From positions 1,736,001 to 1,800,000 of the forward strand of contig NZ_CP065800.1 of assembly GCF_023206215.1 (NCBI RefSeq): 64,000 nucleotides of DNA, given 5' to 3'. Shown here one piece after another: positions 2,058-63,424 of the stretch (its first letter is position 1; each line of letters starts with the position of its first letter). The DNA comes from Butyrivibrio fibrisolvens (GTDB lineage Bacteria; Bacillota; Clostridia; Lachnospirales; Lachnospiraceae). The notes beneath the pieces are model-generated. The model had not been told where the DNA came from, searched no databases, and saw nothing but the letters and a program-made list of their open reading frames with translations. The position numbers and the translations under genes are program-made.

Positions 2058-2238
2058 ACAAAAAAACATAGATTTCAAGCACTAAAATTGCACAAAAATA
2101 AGGCTTTGTTTTCTATATAGATAAAAGTGAAATTGTATTGAAAAATCTAAAACTGAGATGTAAGCTTGATATAGTTATAAAACTGAATTATTTAATAAAA
2201 ATCTAAACTTTAGAAAATTGTAAAAACTGTTCTTTATT

Positions 2239-2261
2239 TGCTCGCGACATGAGGTTAAAAA
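2239..2261 (+). promoter_or_regulatory. Truncated copy of the repeated CTCGCG-SD leader
   Basis: The bases before this start codon repeat the 3' end of the leader seen at 6297, 51405 and 62904: TTGCTCGCGACATGAGG, then an A-rich spacer and ATG. GAGG at 2251-2254 serves as the Shine-Dalgarno. The upstream ATTGGYG hairpin is absent here, so the predicted pseudoknot cannot form. The rest of the 2058-2238 stretch is AT-rich, and I could not fix a convincing promoter in it. Confidence 0.55.
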
Positions 2262-5200
2262 ATGGCATTATTAAGGGGAAGTTCTAAAAGTAACATCAAA
2301 AAGACATCTGGTCTTTTAACTGCTTTTGTAGTATTGATATCTTTTATGGGGCAGACATATGCCTTATCTGTAAACGCTACTGAAGTGGATGCTTCTGATG
2401 CTGCGTCCGTGGTATCAGATGCCGAGGATGCAGAACTGGGTAGCGAATCGGAAGGCGGTGAAGCATCTTCTGATACAGATGAAGATATAGAGCGTCTATC
2501 CACTAATTATACGACTATAAGTAAAGGTTATACGTCATCTGAGTATGAAGGTGAAGACATCGCTTATAGGATGGAAGATATCCTTGGCACAGAGTATTCT
2601 TCATATCTTACTACTGACAGTCATGATTATACAGATGGAAGCGTCGCTGATGTATCACATTCTGATTACATTGAAGTAACTGTAGATGTTCCTGAGGATG
2701 CACTTTATGAGATAGGTTTTGATTATCTGTCTTATGATGAATCGATCCTGCCTCTTGAGATCGCGTTTACTGCTGATGGAAGTTATCCTTTCTATGAGGC
2801 TAGGAGCATAACTCTTGAGACTATCTGGGTATCAGAAGATACTACCAGCATCGACCGTTATGGCAATGAGATCGTAGCACTTCCTCAAAAGCTTGTCAGA
2901 TGGGAACACAAAGAGCTGGGTGATTCCAGTTACAGATATTCAAGCCCGCTTCTTGTAGAGCTTACAAAAGGTGAACATACTTTTGGTATATCTGTTAAGG
3001 AAGGCACTATGCTCCTTGGAGATATCACTTTAAAAGCACCTGTCAGGATTCCTGAATATACAGGATCAAAGGCAGCAGAGGGCGAGGGCCTTATCACTAT
3101 AGAAGGTGAAGACTTTACTTATCGTAATGATTCTTCTATACATTCTTCTTATGAATTTGATACATCTATCAGTCCTATTTCTGCTAAGCAGAAAGTACTC
3201 AATCTGGTAGATGAGGATTCATTCAATACAGCCGGTCAGACTATCACATACAGTTTCAACGTAGATAAGGCCGGTTATTACAATCTTGCTATGAATTACA
3301 GACAGTCTGAAAAAAATGACTTTCCTGTATTTCTTGATATCAGGATTGATGATGAGATTCCCAATACAGCATTTCAGTCTTACTGGCTTACTAAGTCAAC
3401 AAAATTTACCACCAAAGCATTCACAGATTCTGATGGTAATGCGCTTAGCGTATATCTTGAAGAGGGAGATCATACCATATCACTTACCATAAGTGCAGAC
3501 AATATAAGATACGCCCTTGAAGAAGTTGACAGGATCATGTCACAGATAAGTGATCTGTCGCTTGAAGTTACCAAGGTTGCAGGTACCAATAAGGATAAAT
3601 ATCGTGACCTCAAACTTACAAGATATATTCCTGATCTTCAGGAAAGGCTTCAAGGCTGGGTTGATGACCTTAATGCTATCGCTTCTGAAGCTACAGTTTA
3701 TGTAGGGACAGATGATCCTGAAGATGTTGCAGCTTTTTCATATCTTCTGATCGCAGCTGATCAGCTCCAGAGTCTTGCAGATGAACCTGACGAGCTTGTG
3801 TACAGGGTAGATGAACTATCTACAAGTGTTAACTCTATAAATACACAGATAGCTAACTTCGTTGACATCATGAATGACAATGATATAGCGATAGACAGGA
3901 TATATCTATATCAAAATGATGCAAAGCTTCCTTCTGGCCTTAACTTTTTTGAAGGACTTTTGATGAGTGCAGAGAGGTTTTTCTATTCATTCTTTGGACA
4001 GAGCTACTCTGCAAGTAATACAGATGAGTCTCATATACAGGTATGGGTCAACCGCCCCAGACAGTATGTAGAGATCATGCAGAAGATGATAGATGAAGAG
4101 TTCACTGCTTCAACAGGGATAGAAGTCGATCTCTCCATCATGACTGATGCGCAGAAGCTTATTTTGTCCAACGCATCAGGTGATACTCCGGATATAGCTA
4201 CAGGTATCAACTATTCGATACCTTTTGATCTTGCTATAAGAGGAGCTTTGGTAGACTTGACTCAGTTTGATAATTACAAGGAAGTATTTGGAAGGTATTC
4301 TGACGGTCTATTGGTTCCCTCGGTAGTAGGAGACGGACTTTATTCACTTCCGGAGACTATGAATTTCTATGTAATGTTCTATAGAACAGATGTTTTGGAA
4401 AAACTGGGACTTTCGGCACCTGATACTATAGATGATCTTATAGCTATGCTGCCGGATCTTCAGATGAGAGGACTTAACGTATATTATCCTACAGCAGCGA
4501 TGCTGGCTATGAGGAACTTTCATGGAACTACACCTCTTATATTCCAAAATGACGGATCACTATATGGAGATACAGCTCTTGATATAGAGCTTGATTCTGA
4601 GACATCGGTTGAGGGCTTCACACAGCTTACAGAGCTTTTCACTTTATATGATCTTCCTGTGGATGTTCCTAATTTCTATCAGCATTTTAGAAACGGTGAC
4701 CTTCCAATTGGTATAGCTGACTTTAACTCTTACAACCTTATATTGAATGCTGCTCCTGAGATAGCTAATTCATGGGAGATAGCTCTTGTGCCGGGCATCA
4801 CTGACGATAGCACAGGTGAAGTTGTCAGATATATGTCGGGCGGAGCAGAGAGCACAGTTATGTTTGCATCTGATGAGGAAAGAGAACAAAAGGCCTGGGA
4901 GTTTATGGATTGGTGGTCCAGCGCGCAGGTTCAGGCAGAGTTTGGTCAAAGGCTCCAGATCCTATACGGAGATGAGTATATCTGGCCGACAGCCAATCTT
5001 GAAGCTTTTACGCTTCTTCCATATCCGACAGATGACAAGGATGTGATCTTAGAGCAGGCTCAGTATATCCTTGAAGCTCCAAGGCTTCTTGGAAGCTACA
5101 TGATGGAACGAGAGTTGTCCAATGCTTTTAATGATGTAGTAGTTAACGGTGAGTCTGTAAGATCTGAAATAGATGAAACAGTCAAATCTGTTGACAGAGA

Positions 5201-5309
5201 GACTAGAAGGAAGCTCGAAGAATTCGGATATATAGATGCGGATGGCAACGTACTTGAAGAGTACATAACTCCTTCTATTTCCAAAGTAAGAGAGATTATG
5301 GAGCGATAA
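2262..5309 (+). CDS. Giant extracellular solute-binding protein with N-terminal carbohydrate-binding-like modules
   Basis: A 1015-residue secreted protein, more than twice the size of a normal sugar-binding protein. It opens with a signal peptide (hydrophobic core LLTAFVVLISFMG) without a lipobox. After an acidic Ser/Asp/Glu linker come two beta-sandwich-like regions (about residues 75-255 and 270-425). The second begins with an IEGEDF motif and contains AGYYNLAMNYR and EEGDHTISL, which resemble CBM6/35-type folds. A helical region (about 430-580) leads into a family 1 binding-protein domain (about 588-1015). The two permeases downstream indicate the binding component of an ABC importer, probably for large arabinan oligosaccharides. 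The ligand and the CBM assignment are inferred. With no lipid anchor, how it stays at the cell surface is unclear. Confidence 0.8.
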   Translation: MALLRGSSKSNIKKTSGLLTAFVVLISFMGQTYALSVNATEVDASDAASVVSDAEDAELGSESEGGEASSDTDEDIERLSTNYTTISKGYTSSEYEGEDIAYRMEDILGTEYSSYLTTDSHDYTDGSVADVSHSDYIEVTVDVPEDALYEIGFDYLSYDESILPLEIAFTADGSYPFYEARSITLETIWVSEDTTSIDRYGNEIVALPQKLVRWEHKELGDSSYRYSSPLLVELTKGEHTFGISVKEGTMLLGDITLKAPVRIPEYTGSKAAEGEGLITIEGEDFTYRNDSSIHSSYEFDTSISPISAKQKVLNLVDEDSFNTAGQTITYSFNVDKAGYYNLAMNYRQSEKNDFPVFLDIRIDDEIPNTAFQSYWLTKSTKFTTKAFTDSDGNALSVYLEEGDHTISLTISADNIRYALEEVDRIMSQISDLSLEVTKVAGTNKDKYRDLKLTRYIPDLQERLQGWVDDLNAIASEATVYVGTDDPEDVAAFSYLLIAADQLQSLADEPDELVYRVDELSTSVNSINTQIANFVDIMNDNDIAIDRIYLYQNDAKLPSGLNFFEGLLMSAERFFYSFFGQSYSASNTDESHIQVWVNRPRQYVEIMQKMIDEEFTASTGIEVDLSIMTDAQKLILSNASGDTPDIATGINYSIPFDLAIRGALVDLTQFDNYKEVFGRYSDGLLVPSVVGDGLYSLPETMNFYVMFYRTDVLEKLGLSAPDTIDDLIAMLPDLQMRGLNVYYPTAAMLAMRNFHGTTPLIFQNDGSLYGDTALDIELDSETSVEGFTQLTELFTLYDLPVDVPNFYQHFRNGDLPIGIADFNSYNLILNAAPEIANSWEIALVPGITDDSTGEVVRYMSGGAESTVMFASDEEREQKAWEFMDWWSSAQVQAEFGQRLQILYGDEYIWPTANLEAFTLLPYPTDDKDVILEQAQYILEAPRLLGSYMMERELSNAFNDVVVNGESVRSEIDETVKSVDRETRRKLEEFGYIDADGNVLEEYITPSISKVREIMER

Positions 5310-6260: not shown

Positions 6261-6296
6261 ATACTATTTAGATTAAAAATATACTAAGAAAATACT

Positions 6297-6357
6297 ATTG
6301 GCGCTGCGAGCTCCGCCAATATCGAACCATTAGTCACTCGCGACATGAGGTTATAAA
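6297..6357 (+). promoter_or_regulatory. Repeated hairpin/pseudoknot leader, copy 1
   Basis: A 7-bp stem pairs ATTGGCG (6297-6303) with CGCCAAT (6314-6320) around a 10-base loop. Loop bases TGCGAG (6305-6310) can pair with CTCGCG (6337-6342), giving an H-type pseudoknot. GAGG at 6347-6350 is the Shine-Dalgarno for the ATG at 6358. The region 6298-6350 is nearly identical to the leader of dnaG at 51405. The stem differs there by one compensatory pair (C-G here, T-A there). No known RNA family was recognised. Confidence 0.65.
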
Positions 6358-7236
6358 ATGGCTGCTTATAGAGGACACCGGACCAATCCGGACAAATTCG
6401 AAAAAGGTCAGATCAAGATCTATATAATGATCCTTCCAATGATCCTTTTGACGGGACTTCCGATCATATTCATCATATTCCATGCTTTTAAGCCTATGGA
6501 AGAGTTGTTCGCATTCCCGCCAAAGTTTATTACAACTAATCCAACGCTTGATAATTTTGCCAAGCTTGCCAAAGCTTCCAGAAGTGCAAGTATTCCGCTT
6601 AGCAAATATGTCTTTAACAGCGTGTTTATAACAATCGTATCAGTTCTTGCCTCACTTCTTTTTTCTACAATGGCTGCATATGCCCTGTCCAAGCTTAAGT
6701 TTAAGGGAAGAACAATGATGATGCAGATCAACCAGATAGCTCTTATGTTTGTGGCTGTAGCTGTTATGATCCCAAGATACCTTATCGTTAATAAACTTGG
6801 ACTCATAGATACATATCTGGCAGAGATACTTCCGCTTATAGCTGTTCCCGTAGCTCTGTTCCTGGTAAAAGGGTTCGTGGATCAGGTGCCGGATTCTCTT
6901 ATAGAAGCTGCATATCTTGACGGAGCTTCTGAGTGGAGGATATATACAAGCATCATCATCCCGCTTATAAAACCGGCTATAGCAACAGCAGCAATCCTTG
7001 TATTCCAGCAGGTTTGGACCAATATCGAATATGCCAACTACTATATCAATGATGATTCACTTAAGTCGCTGGCATTTTATATGAATACACTTACAAGCGC
7101 AACTACTACCAACACTGTAGCTGGTCAGGGTATTGCAGCTGCAGCATCTCTTATAATGTTTTTGCCTAATCTGATCCTCTTCTGTATCCTTCAGAACAGC
7201 GTCATGAACACAATGGCAACATCCGGTATTAAGTAA
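6358..7236 (+). CDS. Sugar ABC transporter permease, MalG type
   Basis: A 292-residue membrane permease and the second half of the transmembrane pair with the gene before it. It has an N-terminal membrane segment (IMILPMILLTGLPIIFII), a large external loop and the EAA signature EAAYLDGASEWRIYTSIIIP. The gap to the upstream permease is 97 bases, long for such a pair, and is filled mainly by the repeated leader. Its Shine-Dalgarno comes from that leader, so its translation may be controlled apart from the upstream gene. Confidence 0.9.
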   Translation: MAAYRGHRTNPDKFEKGQIKIYIMILPMILLTGLPIIFIIFHAFKPMEELFAFPPKFITTNPTLDNFAKLAKASRSASIPLSKYVFNSVFITIVSVLASLLFSTMAAYALSKLKFKGRTMMMQINQIALMFVAVAVMIPRYLIVNKLGLIDTYLAEILPLIAVPVALFLVKGFVDQVPDSLIEAAYLDGASEWRIYTSIIIPLIKPAIATAAILVFQQVWTNIEYANYYINDDSLKSLAFYMNTLTSATTTNTVAGQGIAAAASLIMFLPNLILFCILQNSVMNTMATSGIK

Positions 7237-35020: not shown

Positions 35021-35094
35021 TCGGAGTGACAAGACTTGAACTTGCGACCTCTACTTCCCTAAAGTAGCGCGCTAGCCAACTGCGCTACACCCCG
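35021..35094 (-). tRNA. tRNA-Pro (anticodon AGG)
   Basis: A 74-base cloverleaf: acceptor CGGGGTG/CACTCCG with discriminator A, D-stem GCGC/GCGC, anticodon stem CTACT/AGTAG with loop TTAGGGA, and T-loop TTCAAGT. The anticodon is AGG (CCU, and more if A34 becomes inosine). CCA is not encoded. A34 is unusual for bacterial proline tRNAs. Confidence 0.93.
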
Positions 35095-37090: not shown

Positions 37091-37175
37091 GCGGGAATGT
37101 CGGAATTGGCAGACGAGCAAGACTAAGGATCTTGTGACCGCTTAGGTCGTGAGGGTTCAAGTCCCTTTTCCCGCA
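37091..37175 (+). tRNA. tRNA-Leu (anticodon AAG), copy 1
   Basis: An 85-base type II tRNA with acceptor GCGGGAA/TTCCCGC, anticodon stem CAAGA/TCTTG, loop CTAAGGA (anticodon AAG) and a long variable arm (GACCGCTTAGGTC). CCA is not encoded. It is identical to the gene at 37571. Confidence 0.93.
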
Positions 37176-37444: not shown

Positions 37445-37527
37445 GCAGGAATGGCGGAATGGCAGACGCGCATGGTTCAGGTCCATGTGATAGCAATATC
37501 ATGAGGGTTCAAGTCCCTTTTCCTGCA
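37445..37527 (+). tRNA. tRNA-Leu (anticodon CAG)
   Basis: An 83-base type II tRNA: acceptor GCAGGAA/TTCCTGC, anticodon stem CATGG/CCATG with loop TTCAGGT (anticodon CAG) and a long variable arm (GATAGCAATATC). No encoded CCA. Confidence 0.92.
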
Positions 37528-37570: not shown

Positions 37571-37655
37571 GCGGGAATGTCGGAATTGGCAGACGAGCAA
37601 GACTAAGGATCTTGTGACCGCTTAGGTCGTGAGGGTTCAAGTCCCTTTTCCCGCA
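37571..37655 (+). tRNA. tRNA-Leu (anticodon AAG), copy 2
   Basis: Identical over 85 bases to the tRNA at 37091-37175. Flanking similarity extends only a few bases upstream (GGTTT). It lies 43 bases after tRNA-Leu(CAG) without its own promoter. Confidence 0.93.
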
Positions 37656-46580: not shown

Positions 46581-47420
46581 ATGAAAAGTTATATAAAAAA
46601 GAATTTATCTACAGTATTTTTCGCTGCAGTTCTTATTGTCGGCTTATGCATTTTTTTGTATCCATCTGTCAGTAATTATTTGAACGGGCTAAAACAGTCC
46701 AAGGCTATAGCAGACTATAATACTGCTTTGGACTCTATGACACCCGAAGACTATTCATCATTTTGGCAGGCAGCTATTCTTTATAACGAAAAGCTTGCAA
46801 ATGGTGTGATGGATTTTAATCTTACAGATGAAGAGATGGAAGAATATAATACGATCCTTGATCCTACAGGAACGGGTATTATAGGTTATCTTGAGATAGA
46901 GAACATAGGTGTTAACCTTCCGATCTATCATGGAGTAGAAGAGTCTGTACTTTCAGTAGGAATTGGACATCTTCCGGGGACGTCTTTCCCAACAGGGACA
47001 GCGTCAACTCATACAGTACTATCCGGTCACAGAGGACTTCCGTCTGCAGAGCTGCTTACCAATCTTGATCAGATGATAGAAGGAGATACGTTTCTTTTAC
47101 ATATTATGGATCAGGTTTTTGCTTATGAGGTGGACTCGATCAATATAGTCCTTCCAAATGAGACAGAAAGTCTGTATATATATGACGGTGAAGATTATGT
47201 TACCTTGGTTACATGTACACCTTATGGTGTCAACACACATCGACTTTTGGTAAGAGGCAAAAGAGTAGATTATAATCAGGAAGAAAGGCTTATTATCACA
47301 GCTGATGCTACTATGTACAGTACGCTTACTGTTGCTATCTTTATAGCAGTGCCAATTCTTTTGGTAATATTTATTGTATTTATGATAAGGACATCTAAAC
47401 ATTTTAATAAAGGTAAGTGA
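46581..47420 (+). CDS. srtC: Class C (pilin-polymerising) sortase
   Basis: A 279-residue membrane transpeptidase with helices at both ends (about 9-29 and 247-270), as usual for class C. The catalytic His is in LSGHRGLPSAEL, the Cys in TLVTCTPYGVNTHRLLVRG and the Arg in the same block. TGIIGYLEIENIGVNLPIYHG is the conserved entry strand. A lid-type DPx motif (LDPTGTG) precedes it. It polymerises the major pilin and adds tip and base subunits. Confidence 0.92.
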   Translation: MKSYIKKNLSTVFFAAVLIVGLCIFLYPSVSNYLNGLKQSKAIADYNTALDSMTPEDYSSFWQAAILYNEKLANGVMDFNLTDEEMEEYNTILDPTGTGIIGYLEIENIGVNLPIYHGVEESVLSVGIGHLPGTSFPTGTASTHTVLSGHRGLPSAELLTNLDQMIEGDTFLLHIMDQVFAYEVDSINIVLPNETESLYIYDGEDYVTLVTCTPYGVNTHRLLVRGKRVDYNQEERLIITADATMYSTLTVAIFIAVPILLVIFIVFMIRTSKHFNKGK

Positions 47421-47433
47421 TTTAAGGAGTAAT

Positions 47434-48540
47434 ATGGAGAAGAAGTTCAAAGCTATCAAAAGAATAATCGGGATTATAATGACAATTCTCATTATGAGCT
47501 CCATATTTGCATGTCTGGGAAGTACATCACAGGCAAGGAACAGGATAGATACCTCCAAGAAAGGGACCATTAGGTTATCCTATAAGTGCGATATAACAGA
47601 AGATAATGTGAGTAACCCTATGCCAATAAGTGGCGTTAACGTTCATCTATATCGCATAGCTTCTGTGAATGAAGCCGGTGCGTTTGCATGGGAATCGCCA
47701 TATGCAGATATTGCAGAAGTTAGCGCTATTTCTGTCAATAAGATTTCATCTGCAGATGAATGGAATATACTTCTTGGACCAATTAAGACATATATTTATA
47801 CCAATAGTATAAGTGCGGATGCAAATGGCATATCTGACTCTGATGGGACAGCTGTAATAAGTGGACTTGATCTTGGTGTATATCTGGTGGTTGGAGATAC
47901 GCTTGAAGATAAGTCTCAAAACTGCACATACACTTTTACACCATTTTTCGCCACTATTCCTACGATCGATCCGGAAACAGATACATGGGTATATGATAAT
48001 GGAGATGAGTATATTGTAGATGTATCTGCCAAGTGTGAATATTATTTAAATCCTAAGGAAGTCCAATATAATATTTACAAAAACTGGGTTGATAATGGCA
48101 CGGAGCGCCCAGAGTCAATTGAAGTAGGGATCTATCTTGATGGAGACTTATATCAGACAGTTACACTTTCAGCATCTAATAACTGGCACTATTTCTGGAC
48201 ATACAAGGAAGGACATAGCTTTACTATATCAGAGACTGTGCCTGCAGGTTATACAGTATCATATTCTCAGAACGGCAATGTCTTTACGATGACCAATACC
48301 GGTAATGATACGCCGCCAACAACCCCCTCTGAGCCGGAGAATCCCAAGACACCTGACAATCCTGTTGAAGAGGTTCTGGGAGCAGTCAGACTTGCAATTA
48401 CAGAAGATGACACACCTGAAGTGCTTGGAGCAACAAGACTTCCTCAGACAGGTCAGATCTGGTGGCCGGTATTTGCTTTAGCGCTTATTGGGATAGGATT
48501 TTTTACAGTAGGATTTATTAGTGACAAAAAGAGCGTATAA
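47434..48540 (+). CDS. Minor (base) pilin with Cna-B domain, LPxTG
   Basis: A 368-residue cell-wall pilin. Signal region IIGIIMTILIMSSIFACLG, a first beta domain (about 45-200), a Cna-B domain (about 205-290; YNIYKNWVDNGTERPESIEVGIYLDG), a Pro-rich segment (about 292-312) and VLGA repeats. It ends with LPQTG (about 338), a helix and DKKSV. A Pro-rich stretch before the sorting signal is typical of basal pilins that anchor the fibre to peptidoglycan. The ATG lies 13 bases after the sortase stop, with AAGGAG upstream. Confidence 0.88.
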   Translation: MEKKFKAIKRIIGIIMTILIMSSIFACLGSTSQARNRIDTSKKGTIRLSYKCDITEDNVSNPMPISGVNVHLYRIASVNEAGAFAWESPYADIAEVSAISVNKISSADEWNILLGPIKTYIYTNSISADANGISDSDGTAVISGLDLGVYLVVGDTLEDKSQNCTYTFTPFFATIPTIDPETDTWVYDNGDEYIVDVSAKCEYYLNPKEVQYNIYKNWVDNGTERPESIEVGIYLDGDLYQTVTLSASNNWHYFWTYKEGHSFTISETVPAGYTVSYSQNGNVFTMTNTGNDTPPTTPSEPENPKTPDNPVEEVLGAVRLAITEDDTPEVLGATRLPQTGQIWWPVFALALIGIGFFTVGFISDKKSV

Positions 48541-51350: not shown

Positions 51351-51404
51351 AGGACATAGGGAGACGATAGTAATATAATAATCTAATTGCTATAGGATCC
51401 GCGA

Positions 51405-51464
51405 ATTGGTGTCGCGAGCTCCACCAATATCGAACCATTAGTCACTCGCGGCATGAGGTTAATA
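51405..51464 (+). promoter_or_regulatory. Repeated hairpin/pseudoknot leader, copy 2 (dnaG)
   Basis: The stem is ATTGGTG (51405-51411) with CACCAAT (51422-51428). Loop CGCGAG (51413-51418) is exactly complementary to CTCGCG (51445-51450). GAGG at 51455-51458 is the dnaG Shine-Dalgarno. This is the best-formed copy. The 51351-51404 stretch before it shows no clear promoter. Confidence 0.65.
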
Positions 51465-53249
51465 ATGCAGTTCACACCCGAGTTGATTGAAGAAATCCGC
51501 TCACGTAACGATATAGTAGATGTAATAGGACAATACGTCCATCTTGAAAAAAAAGGATCGAATTATATGGGGCTATGCCCCTTTCATAACGAGAAATCAC
51601 CTTCTTTTTCGGTTTCCCAGAGCAAACAGATGTATCATTGTTTTGGATGTGGCGTCGGAGGAGATGTTTTTAGCTTCCTGCAGCGCTATAACAGTCTGAC
51701 ATTTCCGGAAGCAGTCAAGGAACTGGCAGACAGGTCCGGAGTTGCGCTTTCGGCAGCAGATGATACTGAAGAAGCCAGAAAAGAAAGATCCCAAAGGCAG
51801 CTATTATATGATATCAATAAAGAGGCTGCCAAGTATTATTTTTATGAGCTTCGTGGAACCGGCGGTAAGACAGGACTTGATTATTTCCAGAAAAGGAAAT
51901 TATCAAACGAGACCATGCAGAAGTTTGGACTTGGCTATTCTCCTGTGGGAGCAGGTAATCTTGTTAATTATCTTAGGAAAAAAGGCTATTCTGATGAGAT
52001 AATGATCCTTGCAGGGCTTGCCTCACATGATGAAAAAAGAGGAACGCATGATGTGTTCTGGAACAGAGTCATGTTTCCTATTTTTGATATAAATAACAGA
52101 GTTATAGGATTTGGCGGACGAGTATTAGGAGATGCCAAACCCAAATATGTTAATACCAATGACACGCCTATTTTTAACAAAAGAAGAAATCTATACGGTT
52201 TGTCTTTTGCCAAGAATTCAAAAGCCGGTAACTTCATATTATGTGAAGGGTATATGGATGTAATAGCTATGCATCAGGCGGGATTTACTCAGGCGGTAGC
52301 TTCGCTTGGAACTGCATTTACAGCAGAACAGGCCCAGCTTATAAAAAGGTATACACAGGAAGTTATCTTGTCGTATGATAGTGACGGCCCGGGAGTTAAA
52401 GCCGAGCTTAGAGCAATACAGATACTCAAAGAAGCAGGACTTCGTGGAAAAGCTCTTAACCTTGAGCCTTATAAAGATCCAGATGAATTTATCAAAAACG
52501 AAGGACAGGAAGCCTTTGAAAAAAGACTTCGAAATGCGGAAAACACATTTTTCTTTGAGATACGGATAATGCAAAGGGACTATGATATGACAGATCCTGC
52601 CGGCAAAACTGCGTATTACAGAGCTGTCGCAAGGCGTTTGTGCGAATTTAGTGAAAGCCTCGAAAGAGAAAACTATATTCAGGCGACGGCAGCCAAACTT
52701 GCAATTCCGATTGGAGATCTAAAAAATCTCGTTGTTTCGATAGCTTCTGAAGGCATAACTTCGAAGCAGTCAGGAAAGGATATTAAGGCTTATCAGAATC
52801 AAAGAAGGAGGGATCCCAAGGATAATATCCTTAGACCTCAACGCTTACTGCTTACATGGATTGCTGATGAACCTGATATTTATAAAATAGTCAAAAAATA
52901 TATAAGTCCGGATGACTTTACCGATGAACTTTATCGTAAAGTCGCGGAGAAGATGTACGAAGGCCTTGACGCAGGAAGATTTTTGGCTGCATCCATTCTC
53001 TCTCTTTTTCCTGATGATGAAGAGCAGCAGTCGAGGGTATCGGAAATCTTCAATACCAATCTGGTCCGAATTGAGACCAGAGAGGAAAAAGAAAAAGCTT
53101 TGCACGATATCATTTATGATATCCGCAGAATGTCTTATGAAAAGAAAAAAAGTGAGATACAGCTGGGAGATGCAAACGCGCTTAAAACAATAGTGGACAG
53201 CAAAAAGAAGCTGGAAGAGCTGGCGCATAGTCGCATTGGACTTGACTGA
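51465..53249 (+). CDS. dnaG: DNA primase
   Basis: A 594-residue primase that makes RNA primers at the replication fork with the DnaB helicase. The N-terminal zinc ribbon ([19 protein letters not shown]; about residues 39-64), the RNA polymerase core, the TOPRIM centre ([15 protein letters not shown], then YDSDGPG) and a helical C-terminal helicase-interacting domain are all visible. ATG 51465 gives the canonical [21 protein letters not shown] start. An ATG at 51453 in the same frame lies within the leader's Shine-Dalgarno and is unlikely to be used. Confidence 0.96.
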
Positions 53250-62857: not shown

Positions 62858-62903
62858 TACAATAGCGAAGTAAGGCTTGAAAATGATTTGTTTTCAAACC
62901 CAA

Positions 62904-62971
62904 ATTGGTGCCGCGAGCTCCACCAATTTGAACTATTAATCACTTGTTTTGCTCGCGACATGAGGTTAAAA
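62904..62971 (+). promoter_or_regulatory. Repeated hairpin/pseudoknot leader, copy 3 (dtd)
   Basis: The stem is ATTGGTG (62904-62910) with CACCAAT (62921-62927). Loop CGCGAG (62912-62917) matches CTCGCG (62952-62957). GAGG at 62962-62965 is the dtd Shine-Dalgarno. The linker between hairpin and CTCGCG is 7 bases longer than in the other copies (extra TGTTTTG) and has several substitutions, yet the pairing bases are kept. Confidence 0.65.
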
Positions 62972-63424
62972 ATGCGTTTTGTAATACAGGTAGTTACTGA
63001 TTCACAGGTTACAGTTGATGGTGAAGTTAAAGGGAAAATAGGCAAAGGCTTTATGGTCCTCATAGGAATAGGACATGAAGATACTAAAGAAATTGCTGAT
63101 GTAATGGTTAAGAAGATGCTAGGTCTTAGAATTTTTGCAGATGAAAACGGTAAGACCAATCTGTCTCTAGACAAAGTAGATGGACAGCTCCTTCTAATAT
63201 CGCAGTTTACTCTCTATGCAGATTGCAGACATGGTAATCGCCCGGGATTTACCGATGCTGCCGGACCCGAGCTTGCTAACGATCTATATGAATATATAAT
63301 TAGTAAATGTAAAGAGAAAGTACCTGTTGTCGAAAAAGGTGTATTTGGAGCAGATATGAAAGTAAGCCTTACCAATGATGGCCCATTTACTATTGTTCTT
63401 GATTCCAAAGATTTGATCAAATAA
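62972..63424 (+). CDS. dtd: D-aminoacyl-tRNA deacylase
   Basis: A 150-residue dimeric enzyme that removes D-amino acids (and glycine from tRNA-Ala) from mischarged t[28 protein letters not shown] contains the SQ.T motif, and [11 protein letters not shown] holds the Gly-cisPro motif of the active site. ATG 62972 gives the normal family N-terminus (MRFVIQVV). The frame is open further upstream, but that part overlaps the leader repeat. Confidence 0.94.

Follow-up and report, generated by a model that had tools for sequence, protein, structure and literature searches.

In a compact bacterial genome, mobile DNA has to insert at places where the damage is slight. According to the available text of their description, the PATEs of Haloquadratum have no terminal inverted repeats, carry palindromes close to their ends and make no target duplication; they are too short for a transposase, occur in many copies and differ in their sites between close genomes, and their palindromes match those of IS605 elements in the same organism (PMC3119063). 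REP elements and REPINs, moved by RAYT transposases, usually start with GTAG or a similar tag and lie beside rayt genes (PMC2817692, available portion), and both have been tied to a class related to the IS200/IS605 transposases (PMC2817692 and PMC3116915, available portions). The TAACTGA repeats of marine Beggiatoaceae are presented, in the accessible sections of the report, as heptamer direct repeats with little Shine-Dalgarno (SD) character (PMC4679880). The term Shine-Dalgarno is absent from a review of MITEs (PMC10969869) and from a survey of REPs (PMC3733652), and in the accessible text of a study of pneumococcal repeats it is used once, for sites that are lacking (PMC3049150).

The subject of this work is a repeated leader found directly against the start codons of unrelated genes in a 64-kb stretch of DNA, hereafter called the window. 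Most probably it is a non-autonomous mobile element, a DNA unit of about 96 bp (AAGTTTG...GAGGTTA) in which a 5' hairpin is followed by a second one with an H-type pseudoknot and, at the 3' terminus, by an SD. Mobility was deduced from genome comparison: among the readings proposed in the initial annotation was a mobile repeat with a ribosome site of its own, and this reading is supported by filled and empty sites and by a patchy distribution. The family appears to enter the most sensitive few bases of a leader by carrying the signal that it displaces. A literature search by title and start of abstract, mostly outside the subscription journals, returned no description of this element, and no mobile-element class specialised for the spacer between SD and start codon was found described.

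Copies in the window and in the host genome

The profile model R1 was built from 30 copies of the host genome, chosen by a pattern fixing GCGAGCTC and CTCGCG. It places the three copies reported initially within 3 bases of the positions then given, and adds a fourth match absent from that list, the remnant at 2209-2258 (Table 1). The 5' hairpin is present in copy 3 only. A loop GCGAG pairing with a downstream CTCGC is indeed found in all three copies. The 7-bp hairpin attributed to each applies to copy 2, the stem being of 8 bp in copy 1 and of 10 bp in copy 3, and the distance to the ATG, described as identical, is nearly but not exactly so (7, 6 and 6 bases between GAGG and ATG in copies 1 to 3). 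The impression that no described RNA family is involved agrees with an Rfam search without match: only four tRNAs exceeded the gathering cut-off when 4227 models were run over the window, and one element, searched with E up to 5, gave a single lncRNA match of 10.1 bits against a cut-off of 50. Three tRNA genes lie close together on the + strand (37091-37175, 37445-37527 and 37571-37655) and another on the - strand (35021-35094). The open reading frame 51465..53249, which we take to be dnaG, appeared in the ORF listing with a start at an ATG (51453) located inside copy 2 and in frame by chance; since alignments with the DnaG proteins of relatives mostly begin at residue 4 or 5 of this longer frame, the start was taken as 51465. 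The named records closest to this dnaG belong to Butyrivibrio, for the most part from the rumen.

Table 1. Element copies, their parts and neighboring genes (positions in the window)
Feature	Position	Strand	Remarks
Copy 1 (sugar ABC permease)	6294..6354	+	short-linker form, without 5' hairpin; R1 63.1 bits
Copy 2 (dnaG; subject of the initial annotation)	51402..51462	+	short-linker form, without 5' hairpin; R1 77.4 bits
Copy 3 (dtd): stem-loop, pseudoknot, SD	62901..62969	+	R1 96.4 bits
3' remnant (CTCGCGACATGAGGTTAA), SD kept, before ORF 2262-5309	2209..2258	+	R1 28.6 bits
5' hairpin of copy 3 (GCTTGAAAATG...TTTTCAAAC)	62875..62899	+	18/25 bases match the 5' hairpin consensus
Pseudoknot 5' arm CGCGAGC, copy 3	62912..62918	+	7 bp with 62951-62957
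Pseudoknot 3' arm GCTCGCG, copy 3	62951..62957	+	pairs with 62912-62918
Element-borne SD GAGG, copy 3	62962..62965	+	6 nt before ATG 62972
SD GAGG, copy 2	51455..51458	+	6 nt before ATG 51465
SD GAGG, copy 1	6347..6350	+	7 nt before ATG 6358
dtd, D-aminoacyl-tRNA deacylase	62972..63424	+	TIGR00256, 178.7 bits, cut-off 101.5
dnaG (presumed)	51465..53249	+	start by alignment of relatives' proteins
Sugar ABC transporter permease	6358..7236	+	best match UgpE-type permease, 85.8 bits, curated cut-off of 297 not reached
Empty site before ORF 47434-48540	47408..47433	+	plain SD AAGGAG

The exact pattern GCGAGCTC-N10-45-CTCGCG has 62 matches in the genome (4.45 Mb, two contigs) against 0 for the reversed control, so that the family cannot be due to chance. 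At least 147 copies were retrieved genome-wide using R1 (E <= 0.01), and the family has well over 100 dispersed members in the host. Alignment of 61 copies gave the 95-nt consensus GTTTGAAAGTGTTCCACTTTCAAACCCAAATTGGTGTCGCGAGCTCCACCAATTTGAACCATTAGTCACTCGnTTTGCTCGCGACATGAGGTTAA, and flank comparison extended the unit to about 96 bp, in which the 5' hairpin is followed by the second hairpin, whose loop pairs with the downstream CTCGCG, and then by GAGG. A 9-nt stretch of the linker is missing from some copies, window copies 1 and 2 among them. Copies cut at the 5' end, cut at the 3' end or internally deleted all occur, and some of the 5'-cut ones keep an intact 3' end. At three loci (L010, L012 and L043) another 5' hairpin (GGGAGTTAATTAGGAATTAACTCC in L010) replaces or follows the usual GTTTGAAAG hairpin, and the 5' module seems from these sequences to be exchangeable. 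Hairpins of the 5' type also occur without a full core in G000 (C1:1022230, 2344688, 475006, 1548951, 2548968, 2798891 and 3018751; C2:194529) and are possibly 3'-deleted copies or a smaller separate unit. A comparison of coordinates by eye yielded no autonomous copy, i.e. no orphan 5' hairpin and orphan 3' end flanking a gene. On contig 2 of G000, element copies are doubled together with their flanks (6-12 and 312-319 kb; 17.7 and 324.2 kb; 27-28 and 333-335 kb), an indication that large segments of this small replicon are duplicated.

The position of 140 of the 147 host copies was read and classified. An ORF of at least 40 codons begins within 17 nt of the element end in 81 of them, 78 of these at an ATG; 14 copies stand first in a tandem pair (3 were assigned by hand), in another 26 an ATG follows 1-4 nt away but opens no ORF of that length, and the last 19, adjoining neither, were counted against the reading as a mobile carrier of a ribosome-binding site. 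The element points in most copies the same way as the gene behind it. A recognisable 5' hairpin was seen in 128 of 203 host and related copies, and a GAGGT end in 114 of the 128; the ATG is found 3 or 4 nt past GAGGTTA in 84 of these 114, and 0-9 nt past it in 99. At the 26 short-frame sites the ATG may open an unannotated small ORF, a leader peptide or a broken gene, or the target rule itself may include the ATG; some of these sites precede terminator-like hairpins. At one locus (L044, host C1:3977904; L273 in G065), the host copy stands before a short frame starting ATGATCAACAAAGCAACGGCGCTTTAA, followed by a hairpin with a T run and then by a frame with its own SD, an arrangement that looks, from its sequence, like a leader peptide with an attenuator.

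Twenty target proteins were compared to protein families, of which 19 had a family and 1 had none; the families are unrelated. Scores above the NCBIfam cut-offs were obtained for murF, an Fe-S hydro-lyase, fliS, dapB, nrdG, an M3 peptidase, glycerol-3-phosphate dehydrogenase, phosphofructokinase, dtd, dusB, hisF, coaE, rsmG, hemW and a GGDEF protein, and scores below them for a PyrK-type subunit, an RlmL-type methyltransferase, a beta-glycosidase-like protein and the permease of the window.

Insertion sites and distribution among genomes

Most copies with a clear 5' end are placed right after an SD-like stretch, between it and the ATG. After 29 of the 128 copies, whose left flank resembles the element's own 3' end, had been set apart, an SD 4-mer was found in the 12 bases that precede the final two (usually AA) in 59 of 99 left flanks adjoining a recognisable 5' hairpin, as against 9/96 and 7/70 farther upstream (pooled p 3e-18); the 40 flanks without such a 4-mer were counted against insertion behind an SD. 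The hisF locus of the host genome reads CTGGAGGTATAA-element-aaATG, the native SD thus lying within the end of hisH (CTG GAG GTA TAA) and the element in the spacer.

The ends of the element were defined by two pairs of filled and empty sites. The first is filled in G102 (GAGGGTAA-GTTTG...GAGGTTA-AATATGG) and empty in the host (GGAGTAATATGG), with a second empty relative, G065, differing in the spacer (GAGGGATTATATGG); the second is filled in the host (GAGGTTAA-GTTTG...GAGGTTA-AAATATGG) and empty in G065 (GAGGTTAAATATGG). Both fit an element AAGTTTG...GAGGTTA without target duplication. A two-base duplication of AA also fits both pairs but fails for copies reading GAGGTTATTTATG, with right flank TTTATG, and AA was for this reason assigned to the element. 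The ends and the absence of duplication are thus drawn from two pairs plus the copies ending GGTTATTTATG.

Further sites differ in occupancy between the host and these two relatives, whose DNA is about 78-80% identical to that of the host over the window stretch and 97-99% in some genes. The gene at window position 47434 has a full element in G102 and is empty in the host and in G065, the latter with a plain SD GAGGG, and dtd is filled in the host and empty in both relatives. In G065 the element also precedes a gene (75.8% identical) that in the host has a plain AGGAGG site. The gene behind the remnant at 2209 has a complete-core copy in G102 (L314, 98.3% identical over 600 bases). The stretch upstream of dnaG amounts to 101 bases in the host, 24 in G065 and 20 in G102. 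Both shorter stretches contain GACATGAGGTAA, which is possibly the end of a lost copy, so that this site may represent a loss in G065 and G102 and not a gain in the host. At C1:2395518/2395614 the host has a tandem and G065 a single copy at the same gene (99.8% identical), the second copy having apparently been inserted behind the SD of the first. The copy adjoining the ATG has the higher R1 score in 13 of 14 tandem pairs, which fits the entry of new copies behind a working SD and, equally, a relaxed upkeep of the distant copy. At host C1:189145 (L099), the same gene (about 97.5% identical) is occupied at the same insertion point in G065 (L269) and G102 (L266). By sequence, the L099 copy is of a different subfamily (GGCGCGAGC.../AGCTCGTGAC) from the other two, which looks like gene conversion between copies or replacement.

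Additional copies before start codons, the search for which had been proposed as a check, were found in G065, G102 and other related genomes. A match was obtained in 8 of 79 genomes of the genus, host included, by an R1 profile search that may miss divergent carriers: at least 64 copies in G065, at least 33 in G102, at least 12 in G101, and four more genomes listed with one match each, three of which are weak (E 3e-6 to 2e-4). All copy counts per genome are lower bounds. A draw from the family gave 4 carriers in 397, host included; the three new ones, G141, G298 and G432, belong to three other genera. No carrier was present in an earlier draw of 60 relatives. The 60-75 bases before the gene are free of the element at 21 of 21 same-genus dnaG loci and at 29 of 29 hisF loci of same-genus relatives, and R1 gave 0 matches over 80 named dnaG loci. 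There was no match in the phages and viral contigs searched. Plasmid matches were confined to B. fibrisolvens D1 pNP243 (NZ_CP146964.1), where the element occurs in three places; at the two inspected, annotated genes begin 5 and 4 nt past it. A strict pattern had 0 matches in a contig collection from which near records were possibly left out.

Fold, Shine-Dalgarno upkeep and rival explanations

The 151 distinct cores were reduced to 129 with a stem and to 99 passing length, stem and genus filters, of which 92 form alignment A3. Across these 92 distinct sequences, changes on both sides occur at 10 of 10 pairs of the second hairpin, where 97.0% of cells are paired. For the pseudoknot helix they occur at 6 of 8 pairs and in 11 of 736 cells, the outer pairs of this helix failing in 33 and 46 of the 92 sequences; 6 such pseudoknot pairs were reached in 2 of 500 shuffles. 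Covariation is therefore strong for the hairpin and moderate for the pairing between loop and CTCGCG, for which the initial annotation had called for a covariation test; within the main family that of the pseudoknot is thin. Cases include CACGAG/CTCGTG, CGCAAG/CTTGCG and TCGCGAA/TTCGCGA. As the pseudoknot partners shift in G141 and G298, copies of these two genomes are not part of A3 and were compared by script and by eye. In G141, GCTGCG faces CGCAGC with 6 bp in 2 of 9 rows; the other 7 rows count 4 bp, two of these bases also belonging to the stem. In G298, CGCAGG faces CCTGCG with 6 bp in 2 of 3 rows. By their predicted pairing, these other genera are a clearer case for the pseudoknot than the main family. 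When partners were swapped among 129 copies, at least 5 contiguous pairs were present in 102 actual combinations and in a mean of 90.7 (maximum 98) swapped ones, a modest difference. An upstream ACTCG may compete with the downstream partner: it pairs in more cells (92.4% versus 85.7%) and has both-side changes in 1 of 5 pairs as compared to 6 of 8. One leader folds better than 200 of 200 shuffles (z -3.3, with a folding program blind to pseudoknots), its SD being paired in the best fold and open in the centroid.

The GAGG is intact in 74 of 77 full-length host copies located before an ORF versus 29 of 40 non-tandem others (p 4e-4, copy age uncontrolled); among the latter 40 it is kept in 21 of 23 copies with a nearby ATG and in 8 of 17 without. 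The pseudoknot, counted as intact at 6 or more pairs with G-U allowed, is kept in 55 of 77 versus 24 of 40 copies (p 0.22). Better upkeep before genes is thus a property of the GAGG and not of the pseudoknot, which speaks against a regulatory leader. The window remnant at 2209 keeps little but its SD end and, together with the better upkeep of GAGG, is read as host-side selection for the SD. The fold could be kept by the spread of the element itself, could protect the SD, or both.

Two competing explanations assign the element a regulatory role. A cis-regulatory RNA leader, riboswitch-like or protein-bound, would control a large regulon via the pseudoknot next to the SD, and the covarying hairpin and pseudoknot directly before GAGG, co-directional with 81 ORFs, would be expected of it. 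This is very unlikely in view of the unrelated targets, the absence from all the dnaG and hisF loci read in same-genus relatives, the patchiness among genomes, the tandem and non-coding copies and the upkeep of the pseudoknot, which does not differ significantly between gene copies and others. In view of the same absences and pseudoknot comparison, the general stress- or ribosome-responsive leader put forward initially is not supported. The initial doubt about a single-metabolite riboswitch was justified, the target genes being unrelated; a metabolite riboswitch or regulon was rejected as the targets share no pathway and the element is absent at orthologues. Alternatively, the element could be mobile in origin and now be used by the host, its copies tagging genes for common translational control. 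The common 5' leader adjoining the start codon of 81 host ORFs is compatible with this, and so are 4 of 20 G065 loci with a copy at the same gene as a host copy, one of them also in G102. Such a use is nevertheless unlikely: for the other 16 G065 loci, no gene with a host copy gave a close match (140 of 147 host loci compared; some of these genes may be absent from the host genome), the extra upkeep of the pseudoknot before genes is not significant, and the remnant at 2209 has little left but its SD. A retro-element, comparable to a bacterial SINE and copied through RNA, would explain the 5'-truncated copies with an intact 3' end and is very improbable: the reverse transcriptase domain PF00078 has 0 matches in the genome (3 of 14 control genomes match), 3'-truncated and internally deleted copies exist as well, and one 5'-cut copy has a complete-core counterpart at the same gene in G102, so that 5' truncation can result from decay.

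Proposed mechanism and comparison with known systems

Under the preferred reading of a mobile element carrying its own SD, insertion behind a native SD would part the old ribosome site from the start codon, leaving it about 100 bases too far upstream, and the GAGG of the element would take its place. Because the 3' end GAGGTTA resembles the sequence behind which it is inserted, an equivalent ribosome site would be regenerated, which would explain why insertion is tolerated even before dnaG and murF; the gene behind an inserted element can probably still be translated. More tentatively, the folds might prevent upstream sequence from pairing with the SD and, in single-stranded DNA, might be recognised by an enzyme acting in trans. 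The lack of duplication, the lack of visible inverted repeats and the hairpins near the ends lead us to guess at a single-strand HUH/Y1 transposase of the IS200/IS605 type. The genome contains three Y1-transposase genes. The hairpin, CTCGCG and ACCATTAG motifs are absent from all three loci by motif search of the host genome's transposons, where a single GAGGTTA (L167, 1.4 kb from tnpA) and a single CATGAGG (L166) are as chance allows. An IS605 parent in the host genome was rejected for want of convincing end motifs at the three Y1 loci, and no mobilising enzyme was identified in that genome.

A stronger proposal, which we regard as rather unlikely, is that the element homes to ribosome-binding sites, its machinery recognising the SD and start-codon context, perhaps in single-stranded DNA or in nascent mRNA and perhaps guided by the GAGG or CAUG of the element. 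In its favor, an ATG lies 1-4 nt past the element in 26 of the 45 non-tandem host copies without an ORF of at least 40 codons; by our own estimate from base composition, chance would place one there in well under one case in ten. If true, homing would define a mobile-element class for the spacer between SD and start codon, made nearly harmless by a structurally insulated replacement ribosome site. If the mobile reading is right, the copies form a natural set in which one portable ribosome site precedes at least 81 frames of a single genome, useful for translation studies and design and as a marker of real start codons. The family would also serve to study how a parasite is able to spread through target choice and self-repair, and would be a warning that a structured, covarying RNA adjoining start codons need not be a regulator.

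The element differs from MITEs by having no terminal inverted repeats. BOX and RUP of Streptococcus pneumoniae are likewise small interspersed repeats in transcribed intergenic DNA; in the accessible text they are over-represented between convergent genes (PMC3049150), whereas the present element lies mostly before start codons. The TAACTGA repeats, studied in one Beggiatoaceae genome, resemble it in that they precede start codons by a few bases and follow no pattern of gene function, and differ in that the accessible sections describe no hairpin unit or SD end (PMC4679880). As REP elements and REPINs do, the element combines small size, very high numbers and hairpin formation; unlike them, its hairpins are preceded by AA and CC, its consensus is without GTAG, no copy was found flanking a transposase, and it is placed in the spacer between SD and start codon. 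For PATEs, the available text mentions neither ribosome-site targeting nor an SD end (PMC3119063), and the motif search of the host genome's transposons gave no match between the element and IS605-type palindromes; it is therefore termed PATE-like and not a PATE. As in PATEs, the ends AAGTTTG.../...GAGGTTA are by inspection not inverted repeats, an 11-bp 5' hairpin stands at the left end and a 10-bp hairpin ends about 40 nt before the right end, no target duplication is seen in the small sample of two filled/empty pairs and GGTTATTTATG copies, and the element, which at about 96 bp is too short to code for a transposase, occurs in many copies with site differences between close genomes.
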